From positions 19,095,001-19,159,000 of the forward strand of contig CM049416.1 in the NCBI GenBank assembly GCA_026929865.2: a stretch of 64,000 nucleotides of DNA, given 5' to 3'. The notes under the pieces are model-generated. The model saw only the letters and a program-made list of their open reading frames with translations. It was not told the origin of the DNA and searched no databases. Position numbers and translations under genes: made by a program. This stretch comes from Hyperoplus lanceolatus (taxonomy: Eukaryota; Chordata; Actinopteri; Uranoscopiformes; Ammodytidae). How positions within the stretch are numbered: position 1 is the stretch's first letter; each line of letters begins with the position of its first letter. Positions 1 to 45,757 of the stretch are shown one piece after another.

Positions 1-124
1 TGAGTGTATATATAACTCAGCCAGATTAAGCATTTTTTCCAAAATATCCAACTATTGCTTTAATTTTTTTTTAAAGTTACTAAAACAGTTCATATTCATA
101 ACATCAAACATTTACTCTCTACAG

Positions 125-3100
125 AGGATTTAATGGAAAAACTGGATGAATACATTGACTCAATCCACGAGGAGTGTCCGGGCCTAGTGAAGAGAGTCAG
201 GCACTCGGAGCAGCTGGGACTCACCCAGGCCAGACTGTCCGGATGGAAGGCGGCTACAGGAGACGTGGTGGCCATCTTGGACGCTCACATAGAAGTCCAT
301 GTGCAATGGTTGGTTCAAGTGTTTGCTGACTGTTTTGCTGTGGTTATAAAATCTCGTACCCTTGTTTGAGCTTGTACACTCTTGCAAATCTTGTCACTCA
401 AAACTGTCATTGTGTATCCAGGGCAGAGCCATTGCTAGCACGCATCAAGGAGGACCGCACTGTGATATTGACCCCAGTGTTTGACAGAGTCGATTATGCC
501 GATTTGACATTGACTCCCTACATCCCTGCAGCAGATGCTTTTGACTGGGCTCTGTGGTGCATGTACGAGTCCTTCAGCCAGGAGTGGTACGCTTTGAAGG
601 ACGATTCACAGCCGGGCAAGTAAGTTCCAGTCAGAAAGTAACACACTCTACATTCCAAATCACATACCTTTTTTCCCGTGTTCTACTGCAGCTGTCCATA
701 AAGAAAGTATGTACTGTGCCTGCAGTAGGCATACAATTGGGACATACTATTTCATCATAACATTGTGTCTTGAACTTGTCTCTTGCTTGTTGAGCCTTCA
801 CATTGCTGCTGTTCCCACTTGGTGATATGATGTAATGTCTGCTCTGCGGATAATTGTGACTCACAACCTCTTTTTATATACACAGTCTATCTATGGTCTA
901 TCTATGTTATATCTATAACAGCCATAAAATAATACAGACTAGCAGCAAGTGCTCAAAAAAGGCTTTAGTTTTCGAGATACCCCTACCCGAGGTAGAACAA
1001 ACCTCAACAATGATTTTTTTTATCTTTAGAATGTCCTGTTCATGAAATTGATTGTTGAGCATTTTTATCTTTGGGGGAAATGTGTTTTTTTGGTTATTCT
1101 TTAGAATTACCCCAGTCCCTCAAAAAGAGCCAAATTAGGCCATTCCAAGTAGGGGATATGTGACAAAAAAGCCCATAACTTAGGAATGCTCACTATTTTC
1201 TTCATCAGATTTGCTGAGGTACTAGCCAGGTGTCTGTCCCTCATCACCAAAAAGTTAAAATGTAATTTAGCAAAACATTTATTGAAATAGGGTCCTGTAA
1301 ACATAGCTTTAGTTTAGGCGGAAATGGTACTTTTGTGGTGATAGGAAAAGAGGGTTCCTTTACTTTTCTCTCAAATATCACCAAAACATAAATCCCTACC
1401 AAATATACCATTTATGTGTTGTCTAGGATGCTATTGAACAATAACCAGTGGTTGTATGAAGATATCTATTACAGTTCAATGTCTAATGAGATTTCTCTAG
1501 AAGTACTCCCGCACTGAAATAGCCAAATTAGGACATTCCGAATGGGGGATAAGTGGCATAATAGCCTATAGTCCAGCAGATATGTGAATGCATTGTGATT
1601 TTTATGATACAAACATGAGCTTTGGCACACTGATAGAGCATGCCCTAAGGAAGATTTTTTTTGCTATAGGGCCATCGCCAATTTCTCCCATGGCGGCCAT
1701 TTTCTAAAATGGCCACCAGCAGCTGTTATAGTACCAGTAGCTTGGGTTGTAGAGCACCTAGGATCTTGATTATGGTGTCTATTCCTACATTTTCAAGGAT
1801 GGACAAGGCAGTGGTTTAAAACATGCTAGAAAGTACCCAACTTCATATATCTGGCATTCAGGGAACTAAATTGTGTTAAAACCTTCAAATATTAGCGGAG
1901 TTGTGCATATTTTCATGAATTACAGAATCGGTTCATGAGTTGTATGCTGACCTTATATGCTTACAAGTAAATGTCTATTTCAAAGCCTGACCAATACATC
2001 AGTTTAGCCTGTTTGAGGGGTGTAATTGCTATTTTATCCGTGTAACCCACTCTGAGTAAGTCAACATTGCTCTAGGTTCCGAAGGAGCTAAGTGATAAAC
2101 AGTTACCACAATGAAAGTACCAGACAAGGTAAGTTGCAAGCAGTAACTTTTACTCACATAGAGTTGTAGGTAACACCCAAAACACATATGCATATACATC
2201 ATTTGAAAATAAAAACATGGGCCATTTAAAATAAACAAGTGTTGTCAATAGTCCTTTTAATCGGTCTGTTTGGTGATCACTTCCGGTTAATCAATCATAT
2301 GTCCCCAACAGTGACCAGCTTGGTAGGCAGCCCTCTTTCTGTATTGAATCAGTGCTGCTTGTGTTGGAAGTCCCTCAATTGATGTTCCTTTCTGGGTGAT
2401 GAGCTGCTTTCTTGCCTGATTGACAGATTCCTGGCTGCTTGTGCGCCCATATAGCAATACAACACATCTCTTCAGATGCTCCATCCAGTTGTCTATGGCA
2501 GCAAAGGCACAGAAGGCTTTTGTGACATCTTCAAAGATCCTCCATGTATCCCACGCAGTTTTCTTACCCCTGCCACCAAAAGATGACACTGTCACATCCA
2601 GTAAAGGCATGGAACCCCCGGCAAGGCGATACATCGTTCTGGACCTAGTGCCGTTGCCATCTCGTGAGCTGCTAAATGCCGAAAACTCTTTCCATTCCGA
2701 AGGCAACCCACAGCCCATTGATGTTGAGAGAGTGGGCTGCTGTCACTGCCAGCACCAACACATCTGTGCCAACTGTGCATATTGATACACTGTTATACCC
2801 TTACTTCACAGCATCTCCAAGGTGCAGTAGGATGTGGGTATCAGCCTCCTCATGTTTGCATAGCGCAAGAACTTCTACATCTCGAGGCTGAGTGCAGAAG
2901 AGTTCAGCATGAAGATTGTTAATCACTTGTTTTTCAGTGTTGAGGTCTGTCAGGCCCTTCAGGGAGTTCGTAGAAGAGTTGAGCCGTCAAGTGCCATTCC
3001 TCGAAAATGGCCAGAGTTTTTGCGCATTGACGACAACAAGGCTGAACAGTTCTCCTTTCTGCCATCTCTCTTGCTGCGTGTTTCCGCCTTTAAGGCTGTT

Positions 3101-6100
3101 ACATACTCCGCGAGAAGAAAGAACAAAGTTCTCGGTGACAGAGCTGCGAGAAGAAAATGACGTCATTTTCTTCTCTCAGCTCTTGTTTAGCTGTTCTCGC
3201 AGCTTGTTCTCGACACATCACCCGGGCCGAACTTTCTTCTCGCATCTTGTCCGAGAACTATTGTGTGATTGGTCAGTCTGAAGTCAATGAGGAAAGCGAA
3301 GTGAAATCAGCTGGCGCTACTGAGTCAATTACCATGGTAACAATGCGCCGCGGTGAGGAGTTCGGCACTTGAGTTCTCGTGAAGTATGTAATGTCAGACC
3401 AGAAAGAACTTCTCGCAGCTCTGTCACCGAGAACTTTGTTCTTTCTTCTCGCGGAGTATGTAACAGCCTTTAGACTGTCAGGAAAATTTGGATCCCACAC
3501 AACATCCACTCTGCTGACATGCTCCAGCTTAGACAGGATGTATGGTGATAACACCTTCTGTGCATATTTAGAAAAGGTCTCAGCAGCACCAGGTCGTATC
3601 ATGTTTACGAGCCCCATCAAGTATGTTGACCTGTACAATGGGGTTGGATTTGTTCACTTGCGATGAAATCAGGTTATCCAAACAGCCCACCAGGTCTGAC
3701 TTGGTTCCAGTTCTTAACTTGCCCATTTGTGACAATGCCAGTCGACATGCCTGGTATTTCTTGCTAAAAAAACTCATCCAGACTTCCATCACGTATCTGG
3801 GATACAATATAAAGCCTAGAGAACAGGGAGCAGTCTCTCTTCAGGGATGAGGGCTGTTGTTGGGACCAGGGGCCTCATTTATCAACCGTACTTACGCACA
3901 AATCTGTGCGTAAGTAGGGCGTAAGAACATTGCCACGAAAAGTATGGAATTTACCAAAATGTACTTAGACTTATGAATGTGTGTAAATATAAGCACAACT
4001 CTGACCATGCTTACGAACAGAATCTAGTGGTAGAATAGCGATATTACAAGCACAAAGCAAAGCATTTAAGAGTTTCAACGTCTGCATTAATACTAGAACC
4101 GCCAGCGTTCTCTTTATATCTATAAGCGCCACGCATCAAATCCACCCGTGCATTTCTAGGGTAATATAAAGTCATACATTTGTTTGTTTAATCATCATCT
4201 GTGTGCTGGATCTCTTGTTTTATAATCTAAGTTTCTTTAAGAACACTGATCACGACTCAGTAATGAAACTGAAGTAGATATAAAATCGCCAATACATCAA
4301 TGAAAACAGACGGTCAAAACAGCGTCCAAATGAGCTAACATCCTAAATGCAATAAATAGTTATATGGCACACTTATTTTTAGGTAAGCTCTAATTGATTA
4401 TTCATTAAATGTGTCACACGTTTACATATTTTGAAGCGGAGGATCCCTCCGATGCTCTCTGTGCGTCTCATCTGACAGCACTGAGCTGTGAGCTGGACGA
4501 GCCGCGGTGACTCGCCAGACTCGCCAATCACTCATTTCACTTAGTAACTCTAATGTTGTTAGAAACTTATCTTCATTTCTTATTTATTGAGAGAGTTTAT
4601 GAATGACTGCACGTAAAGTTGTCAGATCGCGGACCCCAAACAATGCCGTTGCTTTACAACTTGCTCGAAAATATCACATTTTCCCATGAAGCAAGCTTTC
4701 TTTTGTTTTAATGCCTGCACTAAGTGAGCCAACAAAATATGTTTTGCTTTGATTCAACCTTGTTTACAAGGGTTTGTCCATTTATGTGTTGGAGAAGTTT
4801 CTTTTCGTTGCCCTCTTTGCCATTGTAGCGGAGAGGGATAAAACACATTCACATGGTTGATAAAGGGATGTGTTGTGACCATATATGGTTAATTGGAGGC
4901 GTTTCTGAATGCAAATGGTCTGAGCATGAACGAGCATGGTACTTAAGAACATGTGGGATTTATCAAGATTGATGACTTACTGGTGTGCGTATGATAGGCC
5001 AGCGCACGTTTGATAAATACCGATTTTTTTTTGTACTAAAGCACATACTAAATTTCATTCGTAAGAGTGAATTTAGAACCTTTTCTACGCACTGCTGATA
5101 AATGAGGCCCCTGGACTTCCCTCTGACTGGAGGCCTGCAGAACAAAGGGAGCTTGTGTCTTTTGATGTTTCTTTGATTGGCTTTGTCTGGTTGACAGTGT
5201 CAATGACTGCTTCATCTGCAACATCCCTAGTATCAAGTACAAGAAGATCTACAGTGCTCTTTTCACAGAATGGATTGATGGATGGATTGAAACTCGGTGC
5301 ATTTAGGTATGTGGACGTGGTCAAGACAAAATGCTGAAGTTAAAACTGAGCATCAGAATTGGGAAAGAGGGGGTTTAAGCAACTTTTAACATGGCATAGT
5401 TGATGGTGCAAGGCAGGATGGATCCATGCTTTCAAGTTGTTTACTCCAAATTCTGACCCTAGCATCTGACTTTCGCAACCGAATCAAGACTCATGAGACC
5501 AGGCAAGACTTTTCCAATCTTTTATTGTCCTAATGTTGTAGATTTGAATAGCCTCTATTTCAACAGTTGCTGAGTATGTATATCTAAAGGTTGGGTCACG
5601 GGTAAAGAGACGAAAACAATCTATGTAAGGACATGTGCTTGACTTGTTGTGATGAAACAATCTATCTATTTGTAGAAGATTAAGACACGTGATACACCCT
5701 AACACACGATATAAACGAGTCCTGTAACTTTAAGGAGAGTGCCATTGCGGCCTCAGCCCGCTGCTATCATGCTCACTCTGAAACCCTCTGTATTGTCTGA
5801 TGGAATCTCCTTCTAAATAAACCTGAACACCTGATTTAAGAAGTCTACAGTCTACTACCTCTCGTCTTTGTCAAGCCATGGGGAACAATTCGGCTACCAC
5901 ATTTGGCGTCACGAACAGGATAAAATGACTTTGGGACATGCGGATTAGTTGGGCCTGTCCAAGACTGTTCCAGGGTTATACAAAAAAAGGACCGTGTGCA
6001 CTTTTTATTGACTAAGATGTATATCTGGGAGGTAATAGCTGGACTGGAAATCAAGCTTGTTACGTCGCTCTGTGCATTCATGTACGCTATGGAAAAGGGA

Positions 6101-9100
6101 AAAAGACCTGTAGAAAAAGGGCAAAGATTAGCGACCAACGTCTGTCATCAAGAATTCAGACTGCTCGGGTTACTGCTCCCGCGCTGTCTGCCAGACACAA
6201 GGCTGTGTGCATACCAGCCGCATACCATCTTGGACTTTCCTGGGCGGCTGGCCACGTCTGGCGGAGTCTGCCAGCTATGAAATGGAGGACCATCTTCTGT
6301 GCCAAAGTTGGATGGACTACATCCCCCATGATCATGCCTCAAAATATCTGAACTTGAGACTACTGAGAGACTCAGCTGTCTTGCTATGCTGTCGTCTTGG
6401 CAGGGGGCTCCCTGCTCATGGTCTTAACATTATCATCGTTCAGTGTATGTTGCTTTTGCATTGTTGGTCCTAAAGTGTAGTTTACTGCAGTAATGCTTAC
6501 ATCTATGCATTGTATTCTACTTCACTCATAAAGAGTGTTTCTGTGTTTTGGTGGAGGTTTCTGTTAGGCCATTCAAATATGTTTGGTTACATCTTGTTTT
6601 GGTAGAAGTATGTACTTCTAAATGGAGGAATGTTGTAGATTTGAATAGCCTCTATTTCAACAGTTGCTGAGTATGTATATCTAAAGGTTGGGTCACGGGT
6701 AGAGAGACGAAAACAATCTATGTAAGGACATGTGCTTGACTTGTTGTGATGAAACAATCTATCTATTTGTAGAAGATTAAGACACGTGATACACCCTAAC
6801 ACACGATATAAACGAGTCCTGTAACTTTAAGGAGAGTGCCATTGCGGCCTCAGCCCGCTGCTATCATGCTCACTCTGAAACCCTCTGTATTGTCTGATGG
6901 AATCTCCTTCTAAATAAACCTGAACACCTGATTTAAGAAGTCTACAGTCTACTACCTCTCGTCTTTGTCAAGCCATGGGGAACAATTCGGCTACCACACT
7001 GTCTTCTGCTGCTGTAGCCCATCTGCTTCAAGGTTGGTCGAGTTTTGCGTTCAGAGATGGTATTCTGCATACCCTGGTTGTAACAAGTGGTTATTTGAGT
7101 TACTGTTGCCTTTCTATCATCTCGAACCAGTATGCCCATGCTCCTCTGACCTCTGACATCCACAAGGCATTTTTATCCACACAAATGCCGCTCACGGGAT
7201 ATTTTTTCTTTTTCGGGCAATTCTCTGTAAGCCCTAGAGATGGTTGTGTATGAAAATCACAGTGGATCAGCAGTTTCTGAAATACTCAGACCAGCACTTT
7301 TGGCACCATCAACATTAACATGTTCAAAGTCACTTAAACCCCCTTTCTACCCCATTCTGATGCTCGGTCTTAACCTCAATAAGTTGTCCCGTCCAGGTCT
7401 ACATACCTAAATGCATCCTATGTGATTGGCTGATAAGTTATGTGTTAACAAGAAAATTAAGCGCTGTACCTATTAAAGTGGCCGGTGAGTGTATAGCGCT
7501 AGTTAGTTCTTTAACTTCTCTTGCAAAAGCCAATTGTGCATGTTTGGTCTACTCGTGGTCCCGGGTGTCATTCTCCCTTCTCTTCTCAGTGGATGCCTCA
7601 AACTCTCCAACCACACTTGCCATCTCGGGGCCAGACACCATCCAGCGTCGCAGAGCTGCAGGGTTCTCTGTAAGTCCCACAACACCACCGCTTGGTCAAA
7701 AGCTGAGAAGCAGTGTGTTGTTTTCTTCACAGCAAAGTTTCCTTTCAGAAACTGCTCATCAGGACATCAGGATATGTATCCTACAGTGAAATCATGCCAC
7801 ACAAGTGGACTGGTATCCATCTGGCATAGTGGGTGTGTCCCAAAGCAAAGAACCAAACCACGATCTTGGTCAGTGCATCTATATAGAGTAGGAAGTTGGC
7901 CTCTCTTATTGATTGCACATAGATCATTTACTCTATTTCGAGCTGCAGGACAATGGACAAGAAGTGGAACTGGGGACATGACAAAGCTCTTTCAATACAC
8001 CAGTCTTCCAAGGACAGAGGATTAGGGCCCACTCACACTAGTTCCATTTGCCTGTTCCGTGCTCAGCACGATTCAGCACGATTCCCCCGCCTCCCCACTC
8101 CCCCCGCTGGCCCGTGCTCACACTGCTTGTGGCCTGGGCACACTTGCACCTTGCCTACGTCACCGTGCGCGTTTAGGATTTGGAGCGTAGTCTACTTGTA
8201 GGCTATACGACTGTTTGTGAATATTTTCATCCGGCCAAATTTGCATCAAATATTCCACTTCCACATTAGAGCAACGAGAATCCTTAAGCTAAGCTATTGT
8301 TTTTTTTTTAATGTAGCCTTGACGTAATAGGTCGCGGTGGACAGTCTCATATTTGTGCAGCACGCTGTTTATTATTAATATAACAGCCCGTCATCAGACC
8401 ATACGTACCGGATGGTTTTATACACATCGATCGCTCCATCAAATCCAAGTCAGAACTTTTTGGATGGGCAGAGATCGTTTTTTTAAGTGTCTTTATAAAG
8501 TTTCTTGTTAGTGTAGGCTACTGTTTCCTTATCACCGGACCGCGGTGTGTTATTTTGGGTTCGTCTCCACCGCCATGCGTAAAGGCAGTTATGAAAGCTG
8601 ACGGGAGGAAAAAGAAAAAAATCATCTGACGAACGTGAGTAAACACGAAAACCTTTTTGCTTTGCTTTCTGAGCTGACCTATTTAGCTCTCTCCCTCTTT
8701 TATTAGCCCACACCTAGGCCTACACACACGTTAATTCTCACACATTATAGCTACAAGTCCAAGTGGTGGGCAATTCTGGTGCCGACTAGTAAGGCAGCGG
8801 ACGTTAACGGACTATGCATCCTTAATAAATTCACGTCAGGAACGCAGCCTGTGCGCTTGCTTGTGCGCGTGTCATCTCATTAGCATCTGTACTTTGGCCA
8901 CGGCACACCTCTCCCAGGTGTGCCGTGGCCAAGGGGCTGTTCCGTGCTGGAATACAAGTTGGCGTGGTCACACTAGCCAAACGTTCTAGACTTTAGTATG
9001 CTAATGAGCTTTGGGCCGCGGCCGCGGCCCTAGTGTGAGTGGCCCCTTATTTCCCTCCTCCTGGTCATTTATGTACTCGGTGAAAGCCCTCTGCAGGAGA

Positions 9101-12100
9101 AGATATAGGCTGCTGGCTGTGACCTGATGAGCATGGCAGGGGCGTCACGTGACAGGCTTTCAGAAATGAATCTGCTGTCCCTGTTGTAGCAACTCCAGCT
9201 TGCACAAGTGCTCTACACACGCTACCTTCCAAGATGGTGCCAAGTACCTTGAGTGCTGCCATCTCAATGTGGAACCCACCAAACATCACAATGAGCTGCT
9301 GGCCAAGTCCACTGGATTTGTTTTGCCACTGCATACAGAGGTTGATCCAGAGTGATGATTGGTACCGGAGCAGGATTCAGAATCTCCACTGCCTTCTTCA
9401 CCACATTCATAGAATGGTGAATCATGGCGAACGGTTTTGGCTTGGTCATAGAAAAAGGGAAGTACACATTACATTGTGTAATTCTTGGTGTTAACAATGT
9501 TTTTATGCTTTAGTATGATTATTGTATAACATTTAGACAGAGTGAGATCCACTGTGAAGATCCCTCTCCATTGATGGCGAGCCTCTCAGTGTGAACATTC
9601 CAGGACGAGGAACCGACCCATGAAATACTTGACATGTGGTAGGGCCGTACCAGTCGCCAGGATACACACATCCATTGGACTGCTACACACATCCTTTCTA
9701 AGAACTGTCACAGGACCAGTTACAGACATTTTAACGGAGAACCACTGACAGTGGATTGATCATCCGGAAGTGATCACCAAACAGACAGACTAAAAGGACT
9801 ATTGACAACACTTGTTTATTTTAAATGGCCCATGTTTTTATTTTCAAATTATGTATATGCATATGTGTTTTGGGTGTTACCTACAACTCTATGTGAGTAA
9901 AAGTTACTGCTTGCAACTTACCTTGTCTGGTACTTTCATTGTGGTAACTGTTTATATCACTTAGCTCCTTCGGAACCTAGAGCAATGTTGACTTACTCAG
10001 AGTGGGTTACGCGGATAAAATAGCAATTACACCCCTCAAACAGGCTAAACTGATGTATTGGTCAGGCTTTGAAATAGACATTTACTTGTAAGCATATGAG
10101 GTCAGCATACAACTCATGAACCGATTCTGTAATGCATGAAAATATGCATAACTCTGCTTGTATTTGAAGGTTTTAACACAATTTAGTTCCCTGAATGCCA
10201 GATATATGAAGTTGGGTACTTTCTAGCATGTTTTAAATAGCACCACTGCCTTGTCCATCCTTGAAAATGTAGGATTAGACACCATAATCAAGATCCTAGG
10301 TGCTCTACAACCCAAGCTACTGATACAATAACAGCTGCTGGTGGCCATTTTAAAAAATGGCCGCCGTGGGTGCCGTAGGAAAAATTGGCGATGGCCCTAG
10401 AGCAAAAAAATCTTCCTTAGGGCATGCTCTATCAGTGTGCCAAAGCTCATGTTTGTATCATAAAAATCACAATGCATTCACATATCTGCTGGACTATAGG
10501 CTATTATGCCACTTATCCCCCATTCGGAATGTCCTAATATGGCTATTTCAGTGCAGGAGTACTTCTAGAGAAATCTCATTAGACATTGAACTGTAATAGA
10601 TATCTTCATACAACCACTGGTTATTGTTCAATAGCATCCTAGACAACACATAAATGGTATATTTGGTAGGGATTTATGTTTTGGTGATATTTGAGAGAAA
10701 AGTAAAGGAACCCTCTTTTCCTTTCACCACAAAAGCCTAAACTAAAGCTATGTATACAGGACCCTATTTCAATAAATGTTTTGCTAAATTACATTTTAAC
10801 TTTTTGGTGATGTGGGACAGACACCTGGCTAGTACCTCAGCAAATCTGATGAAGAAAAGAGTGAGCATTCCTAAGATATGGGCTTTTTTGTCACATATCC
10901 CCTACTTGGAATGGCCTAATTTGGCTCTTTTTGAGGGACTGGGGTGGTTCTAAAGAATAACAAAAAAACACATTTCCCCCAAAGATAAAAATGCTCAACA
11001 ATCAATTTCATGAACAGGACATTCTAAAGATAAAAAAAATAATTGTTGAGGTTTGTTCTACCTCGGGTAGGGCTACCTGAAAATCTGAGGGCCCCTCCTA
11101 TTAGTCTATTGTTTGCACACTGTAAAATGGGACCGATTGTTTAGTGCAGGACATCCGGGTAATTCTGGCATGTCGCATTTGATATCAAATATTGCGACAA
11201 TCTTTTTCCGCCATACCAAATAGCAAATACGTATGGGATTTGGAATACAGGGATAATTTCACTGTTTTATTTTGGAGATAGCTGGTCAGCTAGTTGGCAA
11301 ACCAATAAGTGCAAGTTGGCAGATTTATTTTAAAACTTCGATAGCTTCCAATCTTCTTCTTATTTAATTAACAATGAACTACTGAGAACATTATTAAACA
11401 ATTATCTGAGCAATACGTCAGAATAACCCAACTCTGTGAATTAAATTTCCAATTAAAACTATATTTGCCAACATGTTAATCATTGACCTTTTGATATGGC
11501 AAAGAGAACGAGCAGTCCAGCACCTTTTTCACTGACTCAGACTGGGAACATTGACTTATGACCTCAATATTTCTAAAATATTGTCTTTGTCAAAAACGCA
11601 TCTGAATGGAGTGTGTTTGCATTCAGGAGCCCCTCCATCATGGGGATTCTTGTGGCTGATAGGAAGTTCTTCGGCGAGATCGGAAGCCTTGATGGTGGAA
11701 TGAAAATATATGGTGGTGAAAATGTGGAGTTGGGCATTCGGGTATGATTTTCAGAATGTTTCAAAGTTATTTAAACATTGCAATAAAAGTCCAGACTAAA
11801 CTATCTCAACAGTATTTCATGATTCCCAAGTTTTTTTTTGACAGACATTCATGATAGTTTTGGTTTAATCTGGACAGATTAAAACAGGAACCGGTTCCCT
11901 TGAAAATAAATTTTCATACATTTTATAAAACTTAGCTTAAAAAACAGCTTATTTACTGTCTTACATGGCAACAGTAATTGTTTTTATAGAACATTCGGGC
12001 AGAGAACAGCTGTGATTGGTTCAAACTACTTACTGTGTCAGAAGAACCACATAATAGCCCACCTCATCTGAACTGAATTTCTGTAAAGTTAATCAGACTT

Positions 12101-13892
12101 AAATGACAATATCTTTAATTTGGATTGATAAATATGCCTAATTTTTTCTCACCATCATGCAATTAACTCCACAAATTACATAGTTAAACTTTTTTAGGGA
12201 GGTTTACAGGGGCTTTAACAAGCTAGAAAAAGAGGGTAGTGTGTATGTTGCTTTGGACTCCCTAAAAACTACTTATGTTCTGGCAGGTGTGGCTATGTGG
12301 TGGAAGCATTGAAGTTATACCTTGCTCTAAAATTGCCCACATTGAACGGGCCTCCAAGCCTTACCTCCCTGACTTGAGTGTAATGGTGAAGCGTAATGCA
12401 TTGAGAGCGGCTGAGGTTTGGATGGATGAGTACAAATACAATGTCAACATCGCCTGGAATCTTCCACTTGAGGTAAATCCTTTCATCCAATAACACCAGA
12501 TGTGGTTTCTTAAAGATGCAGTGTGTAGAATTATTGTCAATTTTCAGAACAGACTTGGTAGAAATGTAAAATATTATGCAAGAGTATGTTTTAATTAGTA
12601 TATGATTGCTTGAAATTAAAATTAGTTTTTTCTTTTATTTCCTTTTTTAGAATGAGCCTTTTATATCTACATGATTCAAACATTACACACTGCACCTTTT
12701 TAAACAAGTGTTCTGGTGGCTGAAGTTCTAACTTATCTTGTTGTCCTTTTGTTTCCTTCAGGATCATGGGATAGACATTGGGGATTTGACGGAGAGGAAA
12801 AAACTAAGAGAGAAACTAAAATGCAAACCCTTTAAGTGGTATCTGGATAACATTTACCCCCAACTGGACCCTTTGGGTGACTTGCTAGGTTACGGAGCCG
12901 TGAGTATAGAATCAATATATCTGATGTTGCAGCATTCTAATTCTGAAATCCACAAGTTTCATAGTCATCTTTCAGAAGGTTTTGTTTAGATTTATTTTAA
13001 AGGTACAGTGTAAGTGTGTAAACGGAATTAGATTTTGTTTTCAGGGAAGGCTTGGTAGAAATTGAATATAATCTCCACAGCGGACACCATGTTGCACTCC
13101 CATGTTTCTGCAGTAGCACAGAACAGACAAACTTAATGGCCTTACATGTTTTCATGTATAGTTGGTGTCTGCCACAAATGCACATGTTGGAAGACTGGAA
13201 GATTGTGGAAAGACCAGTGGTGGATGATGCCATTTTGAGAAACTAGCTTATTGTCCTTGCTTCTTTGCTTACTGTATATTTCTGCTTTTGTTGACAGCTA
13301 ATAAATGCCCTCAAGACAGAGCTCTGTATTGACCAAGGCCCACAACCTGGGAACACACCCATTTTGTATTCATGCCACTTCTGGTCCCCTCAGGTATGAT
13401 CCACTGAATGCACAAACATGAATAGTATTTGATATGGATATAATAATTGTTCTTCGATTTGACGCAGCACTGTTATTATCGCACCAATGGACAACTCTAC
13501 ATCGGCGGAATCAAATCTCACAAGTACAACAACAACCGCTGTCTGGTTGACACAGGCACTGGAGTAAACCCGGGACTGTACGACTGTAAAGTGGCCGTGC
13601 AGAAGAAGTTTCACATGTTGTGGGATTTCAAACAGGTAAATATTACAATTTTAATATGAAAAATCTACACCCCAGAGGTTGGAATCTATTAAAGGGAACA
13701 TAAATGTGTTTTAACGTTGAGCTTTATTCCCAGGATGGACCCATCCAGAACAGAGCAACAAAGAGATGCCTGGAAATTGCAGCAGGTGCAGATACCTATT
13801 ACCATCTTGTTGTTCAGGAGTGCACTGGTCAGAGCTGGAAGATACAACATTTAATCAAAAACCAAGACTTGCTCAAAAGACAAATTAATTGA
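125..13892 (+). CDS. galnt8: Polypeptide N-acetylgalactosaminyltransferase 8-like (3' part, 8 exons)
   Basis: Golgi type II membrane enzyme family that starts mucin-type O-glycosylation by moving GalNAc from UDP-GalNAc to Ser/Thr. Only the 3' part is present; cytosolic tail, membrane anchor and first catalytic exons lie left of the window. Exons: 125-308, 422-619, 11627-11741, 12287-12472, 12762-12899, 13298-13393, 13468-13635, 13734-13892; every junction is GT/AG and frames join. The metal-binding DxH reads Asp-Ala-His at 280-288. The block [20 protein letters not shown], then YGGENVE in exon 3, matches the GALNT8/9/17/18 branch rather than classical GalNAc-Ts, and the following exons resemble human GALNT8 most (from memory). 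A conserved His lies in the IAHIER stretch of exon 4. Exons 6-8 encode the C-terminal ricin-type lectin domain, with a CLV motif near 13540, CLE near 13767 and a QxW-like GQSW near 13831. The second intron is 11 kb and packed with transposons. Members of this branch have weak or unproven transferase activity, so catalysis is not assured. Teleosts carry several galnt8 copies; which one this is cannot be decided. Confidence 0.9.
970..2300 (+). repeat. Left arm of the palindromic element
   Basis: AT-rich, non-coding, about 1.33 kb, and reverse complementary to 9757-11080. It contains a small internal palindrome at about 1690-1722 (CCATTTTCTAAAATGG-type). The reading frames seen here are short and resemble nothing I know. 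Confidence 0.8.
2942..3089 (+). pseudogene. Inverted piece of the relic multicopy gene
   Basis: Unlike the surrounding blocks, which code on the minus strand, this stretch codes on the plus strand for a typical internal segment of the same family ([20 protein letters not shown], then [12 protein letters not shown]). It sits exactly where that segment belongs in the gene order, between the block ending PDSLKA (right) and the block starting NTEKQVI (left). This indicates an in-place inversion of about 150 bp. Confidence 0.6.
3093..3469. mobile_element. PIF/Harbinger-type MITE, 377 bp
   Basis: Terminal inverted repeats of about 60 bp begin AGGCTGTTACATACTCC and end with its complement. The element is flanked by the 3-bp duplication TTA at 3090-3092 and 3470-3472. 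TTA/TAA targets and short TIR elements are typical of PIF/Harbinger. It has no coding capacity and interrupts the relic gene block that ends PDSLKA. Confidence 0.85.
3867..5113. mobile_element. Non-autonomous TIR DNA transposon, 1247 bp
   Basis: The left end CAGGGGCCTCATTTATCA is mirrored by TGATAAATGAGGCCCCTG at the right. A GAC triplet flanks both ends (3864-3866 and 5114-5116), consistent with a 3-bp target duplication. No transposase frame is present inside. It splits the relic gene between the blocks at 5300-5117 and 3863-3473. This TIR type is common in fish genomes; the superfamily is uncertain because hAT would need an 8-bp duplication, which is not seen. Confidence 0.75.
5534..5901 (+). 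repeat. 5' LTR
   Basis: 368 bp. A TATA-like GATATAAAC lies at about 5707-5715 and a polyadenylation signal AATAAA near 5816. It differs from the 3' LTR at about one position by eye (an A/G change near 5606). Confidence 0.88.
6631..6998 (+). repeat. 3' LTR
   Basis: 368 bp, same length as the 5' LTR and almost identical, preceded by a purine-rich tract. The near identity implies a recent insertion. Confidence 0.88.
8025..9046. mobile_element. PIF/Harbinger-type non-autonomous element, 1022 bp
   Basis: The left end GGGCCCACTCACACTAG and right end CTAGTGTGAGTGGCCCC are inverted repeats flanked by TTA at 8022-8024 and 9047-9049. The interior is GC-richer than the neighbourhood and has no transposase frame. 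A diverged, opposite-facing relative lies at about 18850-19450. Confidence 0.8.
9757..11080 (-). repeat. Right arm of the palindromic element
   Basis: Reverse complement of the left arm, high identity by eye, with a few small indels and substitutions scattered along it. It ends about 550 bp before galnt8 exon 11627-11741. The stretch 11085-11626 is ordinary AT-rich intron with no gene. Confidence 0.8.
12510..12703. repeat. MITE-like repeat, family A
   Basis: Starts TTAAAGATGCAGTGTGTAG and ends ACACACTGCACCTTTTTAA, an imperfect inverted pair. It sits in the galnt8 intron between exons 4 and 5. Other family A copies or fragments in the window are at 12999-13240, 21790-21822, 29620-29832, 38428-39015 (more than one), 39250-39287 and 48298-48391. 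Confidence 0.7.
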
Positions 13893-44232: not shown

Positions 44233-45757
44233 ATGGCCTCGACAGAGAGCACCACTCAGACCTACAAGCTGGTGAGTTGGGAGGGTGCTACACTTATACA
44301 CAGTATATATGAATGAGACTATTTGAATTTATTTTGATGAAAAATGAATATGTAAGGTGCCTTAAATGATACATTTTGTTGAGTAAATTCATTTTATCTT
44401 TACCCATGTGTGTCGATCTATTCCAGACCTCCTTGGAGAGCAGCGACATCAACCAGCACTTTCAGGATGCGATTGATGTGATTCAACAGCATTCATATTA
44501 TGATTCAGGTACAGTAAATATTTCTATTAATTCTTTTCATTGCATGATTTTAAGCTTAAGAAACTTTTCTACCTGTCGTCTCTGATGTAAAACATATATA
44601 TATATTTAAATTAAATCAAAATAAATTGTTAATGTTTTGCTAATGTCTTTTCAGAGTGCACATATTATGAGACTCTGGGTACACAGCAGCCGTCACTGCA
44701 GTGTCAGATCTCCTGCTGCGTGGTCACACACCAGTCTGATGTACCAACTCCGGTATACGACTGGAATGACATGACTGTAAGTACAACAACAACCACAAAA
44801 ATGTTGAATAAAAACACTGGGAGAAGATACAGAAAGAGGGAGAGTTTTTTTTTTAACTTTTTCATTTGTTTCTCTTTCAGCATCAGTCTTGGCCTCAGGT
44901 CATCCCTGAAGTCTCTTTGAGTCAATCTGTGCAAAATGAAGCGCCTCATTTCTACTCTATCTTACCACCACAGAGGAGCAGCAAAGGTAAACAGATTTGA
45001 ACTGTATAATTTACATCTGCACTATAAAAAAAAACGTGGTTAGAGCGCATACCAAATGGGCTCAGTCCTTGTCGCAGTAGTCACGGGTTCGAATCTGACC
45101 CGTGTACCTTTACTGCATGTCTACCCCACTCTCTTTTCCCATTTCCACTCTGTAGTTTCTGACCTTAACTGTCAAATAAAGGTTGAAAAATACCCAAAAA
45201 ATATCTTTAAAAAAACCAAAGAAAGTACAGTCATCACTAAAACAAGACCAATCTCCTCAGGTCGTAAAAAGCTCCGGCTCTACGAGTACCTCCACGAGGC
45301 TTTGAATGACCCCAACATGGGCGACTCCATCCAGTGGACGGACAGCGGCAGTGGCACCTTCCACTTCATCTCCAAGAACAAGGAGAAGCTGGCCGAGTGC
45401 TGGGGCAGACGCAAGGGCAACCGCAAGACCATGACCTATCAGAAGATGGCCCGAGCTCTGAGGAACTACAGCCGCACTGGTGAGATCATGAAAGTGCGTC
45501 GCAAACTCACCTACCAGTTCAACCCAGACATTCTGCACAGGCTGGGCTCCACACAGGTGTCCATGATGCACCTACCCTGCCACGGTGCACATCAAGAGGA
45601 GGTCCACCTTCCCCGGGCCCAAGACCCGGCCGAACAACAGAGCTACCACGCTGCTGCAGTGGCGGACTGGCACAGCTGTTACAGTGGACACTACCAGCTG
45701 CAGGAAGAGTATGATCTGGCCTCCAGCTTCACCTCACACAGCATAACCAAACTCTGA
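44233..45757 (+). CDS. spic: SPI-C ETS-domain transcription factor
   Basis: Nuclear DNA-binding protein of the PU.1/SPI class, binding GGAA sites; in mammals needed for red-pulp and heme-handling macrophages. Five exons: 44233-44271, 44427-44508, 44655-44776, 44881-44986, 45261-45757; total 846 nt, 281 aa, frames consistent. Starts [12 protein letters not shown]. The ETS domain covers about residues 119-203: [35 protein letters not shown], then the recognition helix [15 protein letters not shown] and KLTYQF. These are closer to SPIC than to SPI1 or SPIB (from memory). Neighbouring mybpc1 repeats the human SPIC-MYBPC1 order. A SINE sits directly upstream of the ETS exon. A polyadenylation signal is near 46790. 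Confidence 0.9.
45037..45218 (+). repeat. tRNA-derived SINE
   Basis: A-box-like TGGTTAGAGCG at the start and a B box GGTTCGAATC at 45086-45095 indicate a tRNA-derived head. The tail TGTCAAATAAAGGTTGAAAA followed by A-rich sequence is the common fish SINE 3' end. It lies in the last spic intron, about 42 bp before the ETS-domain exon. Confidence 0.85.

Follow-up and report, generated by a model that had tools for sequence, protein, structure and literature searches.

Academ and AcademX transposons carry a Cys8 zinc finger, and the nuclease of AcademX is of the XPG type. The Academ group has been counted among the superfamilies with a DDD/E transposase (PMC9587614) and has been reported from three teleosts (PMC4746887). 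In the account drawn on here, AcademX makes target site duplications (TSDs) of 3 to 4 bp and AcademH of 9 to 10 bp, which is apparently tied to whether a nuclease or a helicase is encoded (PMC10045372). Long terminal inverted repeats (TIRs) that are dynamically restructured, and extended by recruiting internal non-TIR sequence, have been described for Galileo, a P superfamily element of Drosophila (PMC4168063). Here, we describe an element in a 64-kb stretch of the Hyperoplus lanceolatus genome (64,000 nucleotides; contig CM049416.1, positions 19,095,001 to 19,159,000 of the forward strand). This whole stretch is hereafter called the window, and coordinates such as 935..11108 are positions in it. 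An earlier note, made from the sequence alone, had marked two inverted arms here, enclosing the relic of a multicopy gene from an orphan family. We consider it quite likely that the region holds a copy, decayed and non-autonomous, from a family of AcademX-like TIR DNA transposons, with an enzyme of about 1,500 residues, recombination between the arms, and movement in trans.

That the gene and the arms form one TIR DNA transposon was supported by their joint occurrence in the 807-Mb source genome. A search with the left arm gave at least 59 matches (best 40 of 434 candidates), and 43 of these 59 rows were entered, together with 120 gene rows, into a computation of co-occurrence. The 43 arm rows fell into 29 loci on 15 contigs, and 22 of the 29 had a gene row no more than 9 kb away, while chance proximity was 0.27%, a value valid for the 120 gene rows entered, 18 of which had been picked near arms. 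Direct tblastn on the fetched loci added L017/L018 and L022, which brought the best-scored arm loci with a gene to 24 of 29. The loci not counted as gene-bearing were L019, L027, C10:13063262, C14:675913, and C6:12916651 (the last three not fetched); L019 was left out because the gene beside its arm belongs to another, L096-like family. At this locus (L019:5768-7087), a B arm of the window family (the family of the window copy) adjoins the 3′ end of the L096-type gene instead of its own family's gene.

An intact gene copy with arms, sought as a test, was found in L029, where the uninterrupted 1,523-codon frame of the protein P0001 lies between its own inverted arms of ~520 bp (98% identical over 509 bp). 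The only other frame of at least 150 amino acids between these arms was a 165-amino-acid antisense frame inside the gene. At least one arm was found within 1.5 kb at 9 of 10 gene loci of the L029 family, and both arms at 7 of 10 (loci 81 to 100% identical), C7:21435488 being the sole locus with no arm at that distance. L031, L033, and L034 represent further families, each with its own arms and all with the same protein family. One near-complete L029-family copy with four stops was located almost end to end with a window-family element, ~45 bp apart (G000:C9:1950591-1957303), and another copy (L030:3248-4105) contained an internal 558-bp tandem duplication in its nuclease-coding part, within an open stretch of 857 amino acids.

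The elements also displayed the signature of transposition. A perfect 3-bp TSD was observed for 7 of the 11 window-family elements with both tips (L009, TAC; L011, AAC; L015, TTA; L016, CTA; L022, TTT; L023, AGA; L027, TAA), where L037 and L038 supplied the right ends of L011 and L016, and for all four elements of the other families (L029, TAT; L031, CAA; L033, ACA; L034, TAT). With all families pooled, this amounts to 11 of 15 two-tipped elements, compared to a chance expectation of about 0.23 of 15. The termini were TAG...CTA across the window family and the other families. Furthermore, the L034 insertion lies in a high-copy repeat, and its joined flanks with a single TAT matched at least 41 places (best 40 of 419 candidates scored); the matches spanned 125 to 128 of the 128 joined bases, and all four fetched copies were identical over the join, so that empty sites with a target duplication, which had been proposed as a check, are present for L034. 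Inverted repeats, a constant TSD length, a precise empty site, and an own protein between the ends are thus all found, as in class II TIR transposons. The earlier note had proposed that gene and arms travelled as a single element whose terminal repeats are very long, and that arms found mostly alone, with intact genes lacking them, would speak against this. The arm loci, the L029-family genes, the TSDs, and the empty sites all agree with the proposal, and arms and gene were mostly found together.

In the window, the whole element spans 935..11108 (10,174 bp including four nested insertions), with ends set by the terminal motif TAGWCTAGCAG, which was defined against other copies. The inverted arms aligned between 969-2296 and 9754-11083, far above chance: the alignment scored 2122 bits, and 1,284 of its 1,344 columns (96%) were identical. 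The left arm, which lies 3′ of the gene and has the extended form, is on the plus strand at 970..2303, with similarity to the right arm reaching 2296, and the right arm, on the 5′ side, is on the minus strand at 9754..11082. The A-type outer end (935..980, plus strand) reads CAGACTAGCAGCAAGTGCTC, while most other copies start with TAGTCTAGCAGCAAGTGCTC, and the B-type outer end (11065..11108, minus strand) reads TAGACTAATAGGAGGGGCCC, with TAGACTAGCAGGAGGGGCCC in other copies. Two ~1.33-kb inverted arms around a minus-strand gene relic, as first noted, were thus confirmed by arm alignment and tblastn; the span given at the time, 970..11080, was right for the arms and too short for the termini, which comparison with other copies placed at 935 and 11108. 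Comparison with four sister copies (L009, L010, L013, and L016) identified four stretches that every one of them lacks (3100-3465, 3871-5109, 5532-6998, and 8025-9046). The 10-kb length is therefore secondary, and what had been called a 10-kb element is so at its present length only, with an original size of about 6.1 kb (about 6,080 bp without the four insertions).

The gene relic (2293..9470, minus strand) consists of pieces corresponding to P0001 residues 624-1453, with shifting frames and stops, and lacks residues 1-620 and the C-terminal CXC domain. Using tblastn with P0001, 13 pieces were found, 12 on the minus strand and one on the plus strand. The latter is an inverted segment of ~100 bp (2960..3061) from the nuclease-coding region (residues 1188-1221), which falls between two of the conserved acidic residues described below. 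Of 19 window-family loci tested, 13 gave a match to this segment, and it was antisense to the gene in every one of them, whereas it was gene-sense in all 8 of the matching loci among 9 tested from other families; the inversion is therefore older than the spread of the family. Residues 1-620 gave no match in the window or in L009 to L028 (10 queries, E up to 0.1), the weak matches in this search (E 0.018 to 0.096) all being on the known relic start. The gene started at residue 624 to 627 in 13 loci and later in six others, while L019 has the other family's gene and L027 none. Differences among 12 window-family copies were near neutral, with a ratio of nonsynonymous to synonymous changes of 2.06 to 2.76 compared to 2.95 expected (the pairs are non-independent). 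As judged from these sequences, the window family represents an old branch that is non-autonomous. Since residues 1-620 are missing and the nuclease-coding segment is inverted, it would have moved with the protein of a more complete relative, i.e., it probably moved in trans. The family made short copies too: L027:448-1576 is a 1.13-kb derivative with B and A tips and the TSD TAA, without a gene match.

At its end, the relic abuts the inner border of the left arm. The 3′ end of the gene is here represented by a 143-amino-acid open piece (2287..2718, minus strand), which includes a helix-hairpin-helix-like stretch and ends with ...HCWGHMID at the arm junction. The junction itself (2283..2306, minus strand; in gene sense, GGGGACATATGATTGATTAACCGG) was common to 8 copies without the CXC-coding end, with small local changes in L010, L015, L016, and L025. 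The gene frame had been thought to begin and end close to the inner arm borders; the relic meets the left border at its 3′ end, and its start is located ~280 bp inward of the right arm. The closeness at the 3′ end is explained by an arm that extended inward where the gene end was lost.

The arms were compared within and between elements. For nine two-armed elements, the mean identity between an element's own arms was 0.971, compared to 0.944 to the arms of other elements (0 of 20,000 permutations). In a tree of the arms, both arms were sisters in L012, L013, L015, and L017/L018, while in the window copy and L010 each arm paired with the arm of its own type (A or B) from the other element, as expected if both share a recent source. 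From window position 970 inward, A and B arms differed consistently (80% majority) only at arm positions 4, 5, and 8, indicating that the tips stay distinct and the arms do not. Moreover, of 17 elements that have both a gene and a typed tip, 3 (L009, L015, and L020) had an interior inverted relative to the A and B tips, and the flipped L009 and L015 retained perfect TSDs; a constant orientation of the interior relative to the tips was thereby ruled out. The CXC-coding sequence was kept in 8 of 16 classifiable elements, where the 3′-side arm ended at arm position 1227-1251, and lost in the other 8, including the window copy, where this arm reached 1310-1334 and the common junction (L017/L018, L019, L026, and L027 could not be classified). 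Finally, the A end of L014 carried a B-type TTTTCAGGTACCCC stretch. The arms of one element thus appear to recombine with each other, which is the simplest account of these patterns, and because the arms are homogenised within elements, arm divergence was not used for dating. It could also be hypothesized that the likeness of the arms merely dates from the birth of each element with two identical arms, with no later exchange. An own-arm identity of 96 to 98% would indeed fit one replicative step that produces identical arms, but the flipped interiors, two of them within intact TSDs, the inward extension of the arm at the gene end, and the L014 end all point to exchange between arms, and we find this alternative unlikely.

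The protein encoded between the arms was compared in an alignment of 34 rows (A3), all from the source genome; these include related and degraded copies and are hence non-independent, and the most distant relatives are 21 to 25% identical (L095 and L096). FEN/XPG nucleases have a characteristic order of acidic residues. In the C-terminal third of P0001, such residues were kept at D1128 (10 of 11 rows), D1171 (11 of 11), E1262, E1263, and D1265 (9 of 9), D1289 and D1291 (10 of 10), and D1348 (10 of 11). By eye, L034:4790 at D1171 and the L096 tail at D1289, D1291, and D1348 were stray rows, and without them the counts were 10 of 10 for D1171, 9 of 9 for both D1289 and D1291, and 9 of 10 for D1348. 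The XPG-type residues were also kept in L096/L097 (25% and 36% identity), and a helix-hairpin-helix-like stretch, GRGKKTAW, follows a GCD in the alignment. An AlphaFold model made on A3 had a mean predicted local distance difference test (pLDDT) score of 62, with the nuclease blocks mostly at 53 to 90 with weak stretches, while a single-sequence model (pLDDT 34) was of no use. When the A3 model was searched against the PDB with Foldseek, ranks 1 to 7 were all Rat1, Rad2, or Xrn1 (probability 0.91 to 1.00), and FEN1-like and XRN proteins also recurred in a fold search of viral models. In the latter search, the best BFVD match, at E 1.4e-5, was Protein Allo54 of a lake sturgeon herpesvirus, and FEN1-like nucleases of poxviruses ranked lower; a scan of viral contigs with P0001 gave no match. 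Together, these results suggest that the C-terminal region looks like an XPG/FEN-like nuclease, as predicted from the conserved residues and the modelled fold. It shares with the FEN1/XPG/XRN 5′-nucleases the acidic order, the helix-hairpin-helix-like stretch, and the fold ranks, and differs from them in giving no significant profile match and in being part of a transposon protein.

Candidate DDE residues were found at D490 (8 of 8 aligned rows), D665 (10 of 11), H696 (11 of 11), and E889 (8 of 8), with no match to a DDE fold; in the suggested fold check for a nuclease or a transposase, the top-ranked matches were to nucleases. At the N-terminus of P0001, Cys/His motifs were seen by eye. The L097 C-terminus scored above the cut-off of the Pfam model for Tesmin/TSO1 CXC domains (PF03638), and has the cysteine-rich C-terminal domain in common with Tesmin/TSO1 CXC proteins, whereas P0001 and the others show a CXC-type cysteine pattern by eye only, and the domain is missing in the window subtype. 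L096/L097 (G000:C14:6566350-6570600) represent a second deep family, with an open frame of 1,353 amino acids, the nuclease residues, and the CXC domain. L095 (G000:C12:27326300-27330500) is distantly related to the DDE-like region in the centre of the protein (21% identity) and lies in an open stretch of 855 amino acids that reaches the locus border.

To place the family, the element was also compared with other described superfamilies. PIF/Harbinger makes 3-bp TSDs restricted to TWA, CACTA/EnSpm elements end in CACTA...TAGTG, and Kolobok duplicates TTAA. PIF/Harbinger was ruled out, as only TTA and TAA among the TSDs found fit TWA, CACTA/EnSpm was ruled out by the TAG...CTA termini, and Kolobok by 3-bp TSDs of varied sequence. 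AcademH was ruled out by the 3-bp TSDs and by the lack of any Pfam helicase family in P0001, L096, or L097. With Galileo, the fish family shares long TIRs and internal sequence taken into them, but Galileo has another host, and no XPG-like nuclease is mentioned in the part of its description used here; the likeness is one of description, not of sequence. Most likely, the family resembles AcademX most, again likened by description (TSD length and nuclease) and not by sequence. Both are eukaryotic DNA transposons with a nuclease and TSDs of 3 bp (3 to 4 bp in AcademX), while the 1.3-kb arms, the truncated gene, and the lost CXC end are features of the fish family that go unmentioned for AcademX in the account consulted. 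A TSD of the Academ/AcademX length (3 or 4 bp) was present in the 11 two-tipped elements counted above and absent from the window copy, and the nuclease was recognized by residues and fold, not by sequence profile.

An undescribed superfamily distinct from Academ, in which an XPG-like nuclease and a CXC domain accompany a DDE-like core, would be in line with the lack of any Pfam or NCBIfam model matching P0001. Among the papers searched, none named both Academ and XPG, and no such element appeared in the literature on Tesmin/CXC and transposons, as far as the titles and abstract openings among the matches listed go. AcademX has, however, been described with a nuclease and 3 to 4 bp TSDs (PMC10045372), and Academ elements are on record from teleosts (PMC4746887), and a separate superfamily is in our view improbable. 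The element had initially been ranked as the best candidate in the window for something undescribed; with its 3-bp TSDs and nuclease region, the family is better filed near the Academ transposons.

If the gene were passenger cargo, with an unrelated transposase acting on the arms, one could understand that the window-family gene is truncated, has an inverted segment, and evolves nearly neutrally, yet 7 of 11 elements have clean TSDs. This is disfavoured because four families with different arms (L029, L031, L033, and L034) carry the same protein, and the space between the L029 arms holds no other sizeable frame outside the gene; we regard cargo as very unlikely. From the two possibilities raised in the earlier note, transposon-encoded cargo or enzyme, the orphan gene is most likely the transposon's own enzyme. 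A non-mobile segmental palindrome, i.e., host DNA duplicated locally in inverted orientation on both sides of a gene of the host, has the missing target duplication of the window copy as its sole point in favour and is refuted by the TSDs and empty sites of the family, in addition to the scatter of arm loci over 15 contigs, their common tips, and the repetition of the same design with different arm sequences in other subfamilies, leaving it a negligible chance.

Several observations weigh against the reading of the window region as an AcademX-like, non-autonomous element. The Academ assignment draws on described TSD length and nuclease content, and searches of Pfam, NCBIfam, and PDB sequences with P0001 gave nothing meaningful. 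The Foldseek E-values were weak (0.005 to 0.08, none at or below 0.001), with the matched part of the model not indicated, and the hhalign scores of the nuclease profile with archaeal FEN1 (E 0.078 and 0.38) did not exceed those of the controls, 60 reversed or column-shuffled profiles with similar scores, several of them higher; the XPG reading is therefore carried by the residues and the fold search. D490 and E889 are in low-confidence blocks (pLDDT 37 and 41), and the CXC model matched L097 only among the proteins searched. The count of 24 gene-bearing loci among 29 stems from the best 40 of 434 arm candidates, no inverted arms were detected in L032, and only one arm was detected in the degraded L030. 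No TSD was found for 4 of the 11 two-tipped window-family elements (L012, L014, L017/L018, and the window copy, which has ATA at its left flank and TTG at its right), and no autonomous element with the tips of the window family was found. Pairing of the arms is also imperfect: among B arms, the own opposite arm matched best in 7 of 9 elements, and among all arms it did so in 5 of 9.

As for the nested insertions, defined by comparison with the sister copies, the one at 3100..3465 has perfect 62-bp inverted arms (3092-3153/3409-3470) and is apparently a short non-autonomous DNA element. The insertion at 3871..5109 has the ends GGGGCCTCATTTAT...ATAAATGAGGCCCC, and that at 8025..9046 has inverted ends of the CACTCACACTAG type, both read by eye. 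A short element of the long terminal repeat type (5532..6998, plus strand), with 370-bp direct repeats (5532-5901 and 6629-6998) that are 99.7% identical, entered the transposon relic after the relic had landed. An Rfam search of window positions 1-13000 gave no match. Elsewhere in the window, an open frame at 45056-45757 (plus strand) has a translation that by eye resembles an ETS DNA-binding domain of the SPI type.

For the AcademX-like family, we consider the following mechanism most likely. The ~1,500-residue protein of full-length relatives would bind the TAG-tipped ends, and its DDE-like core would cut and join them at a stagger of 3 bp; what is observed are the TSDs and empty sites, which may reflect DDE chemistry. 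The XPG-like part would probably trim flaps or process structured DNA, including the hairpins that 1.3-kb inverted arms could form. Among the observed arm patterns, homogenisation would result from non-crossover exchange between the arms and flipping of the interior from a crossover, and one exchange may have run past the old border and extended the arm where the CXC-coding end was lost. Such exchange could take place during transposition, with the XPG-like part participating. It is possible, and we put it forward tentatively, that the element generates its long arms through the way it moves: the ends would fold together at or after excision, and the XPG-like nuclease would help to copy one arm onto the other, so that the arms stay near-identical, flip the interior, creep inward, and turn gene into terminal repeat. 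Non-autonomous families would then arise by arm growth and not only by internal deletion.

With these results, a multicopy family missed by Pfam gains an identity, most likely as the protein of a transposon itself, part of which is a FEN/XPG-like nuclease region, and predicted "orphan genes" of the same type may therefore be transposon copies. The fish copies record homogenisation, inversion of the interior, and arm extension at the gene end together in one family, and the origin of very long TIRs thereby becomes testable with existing assemblies.

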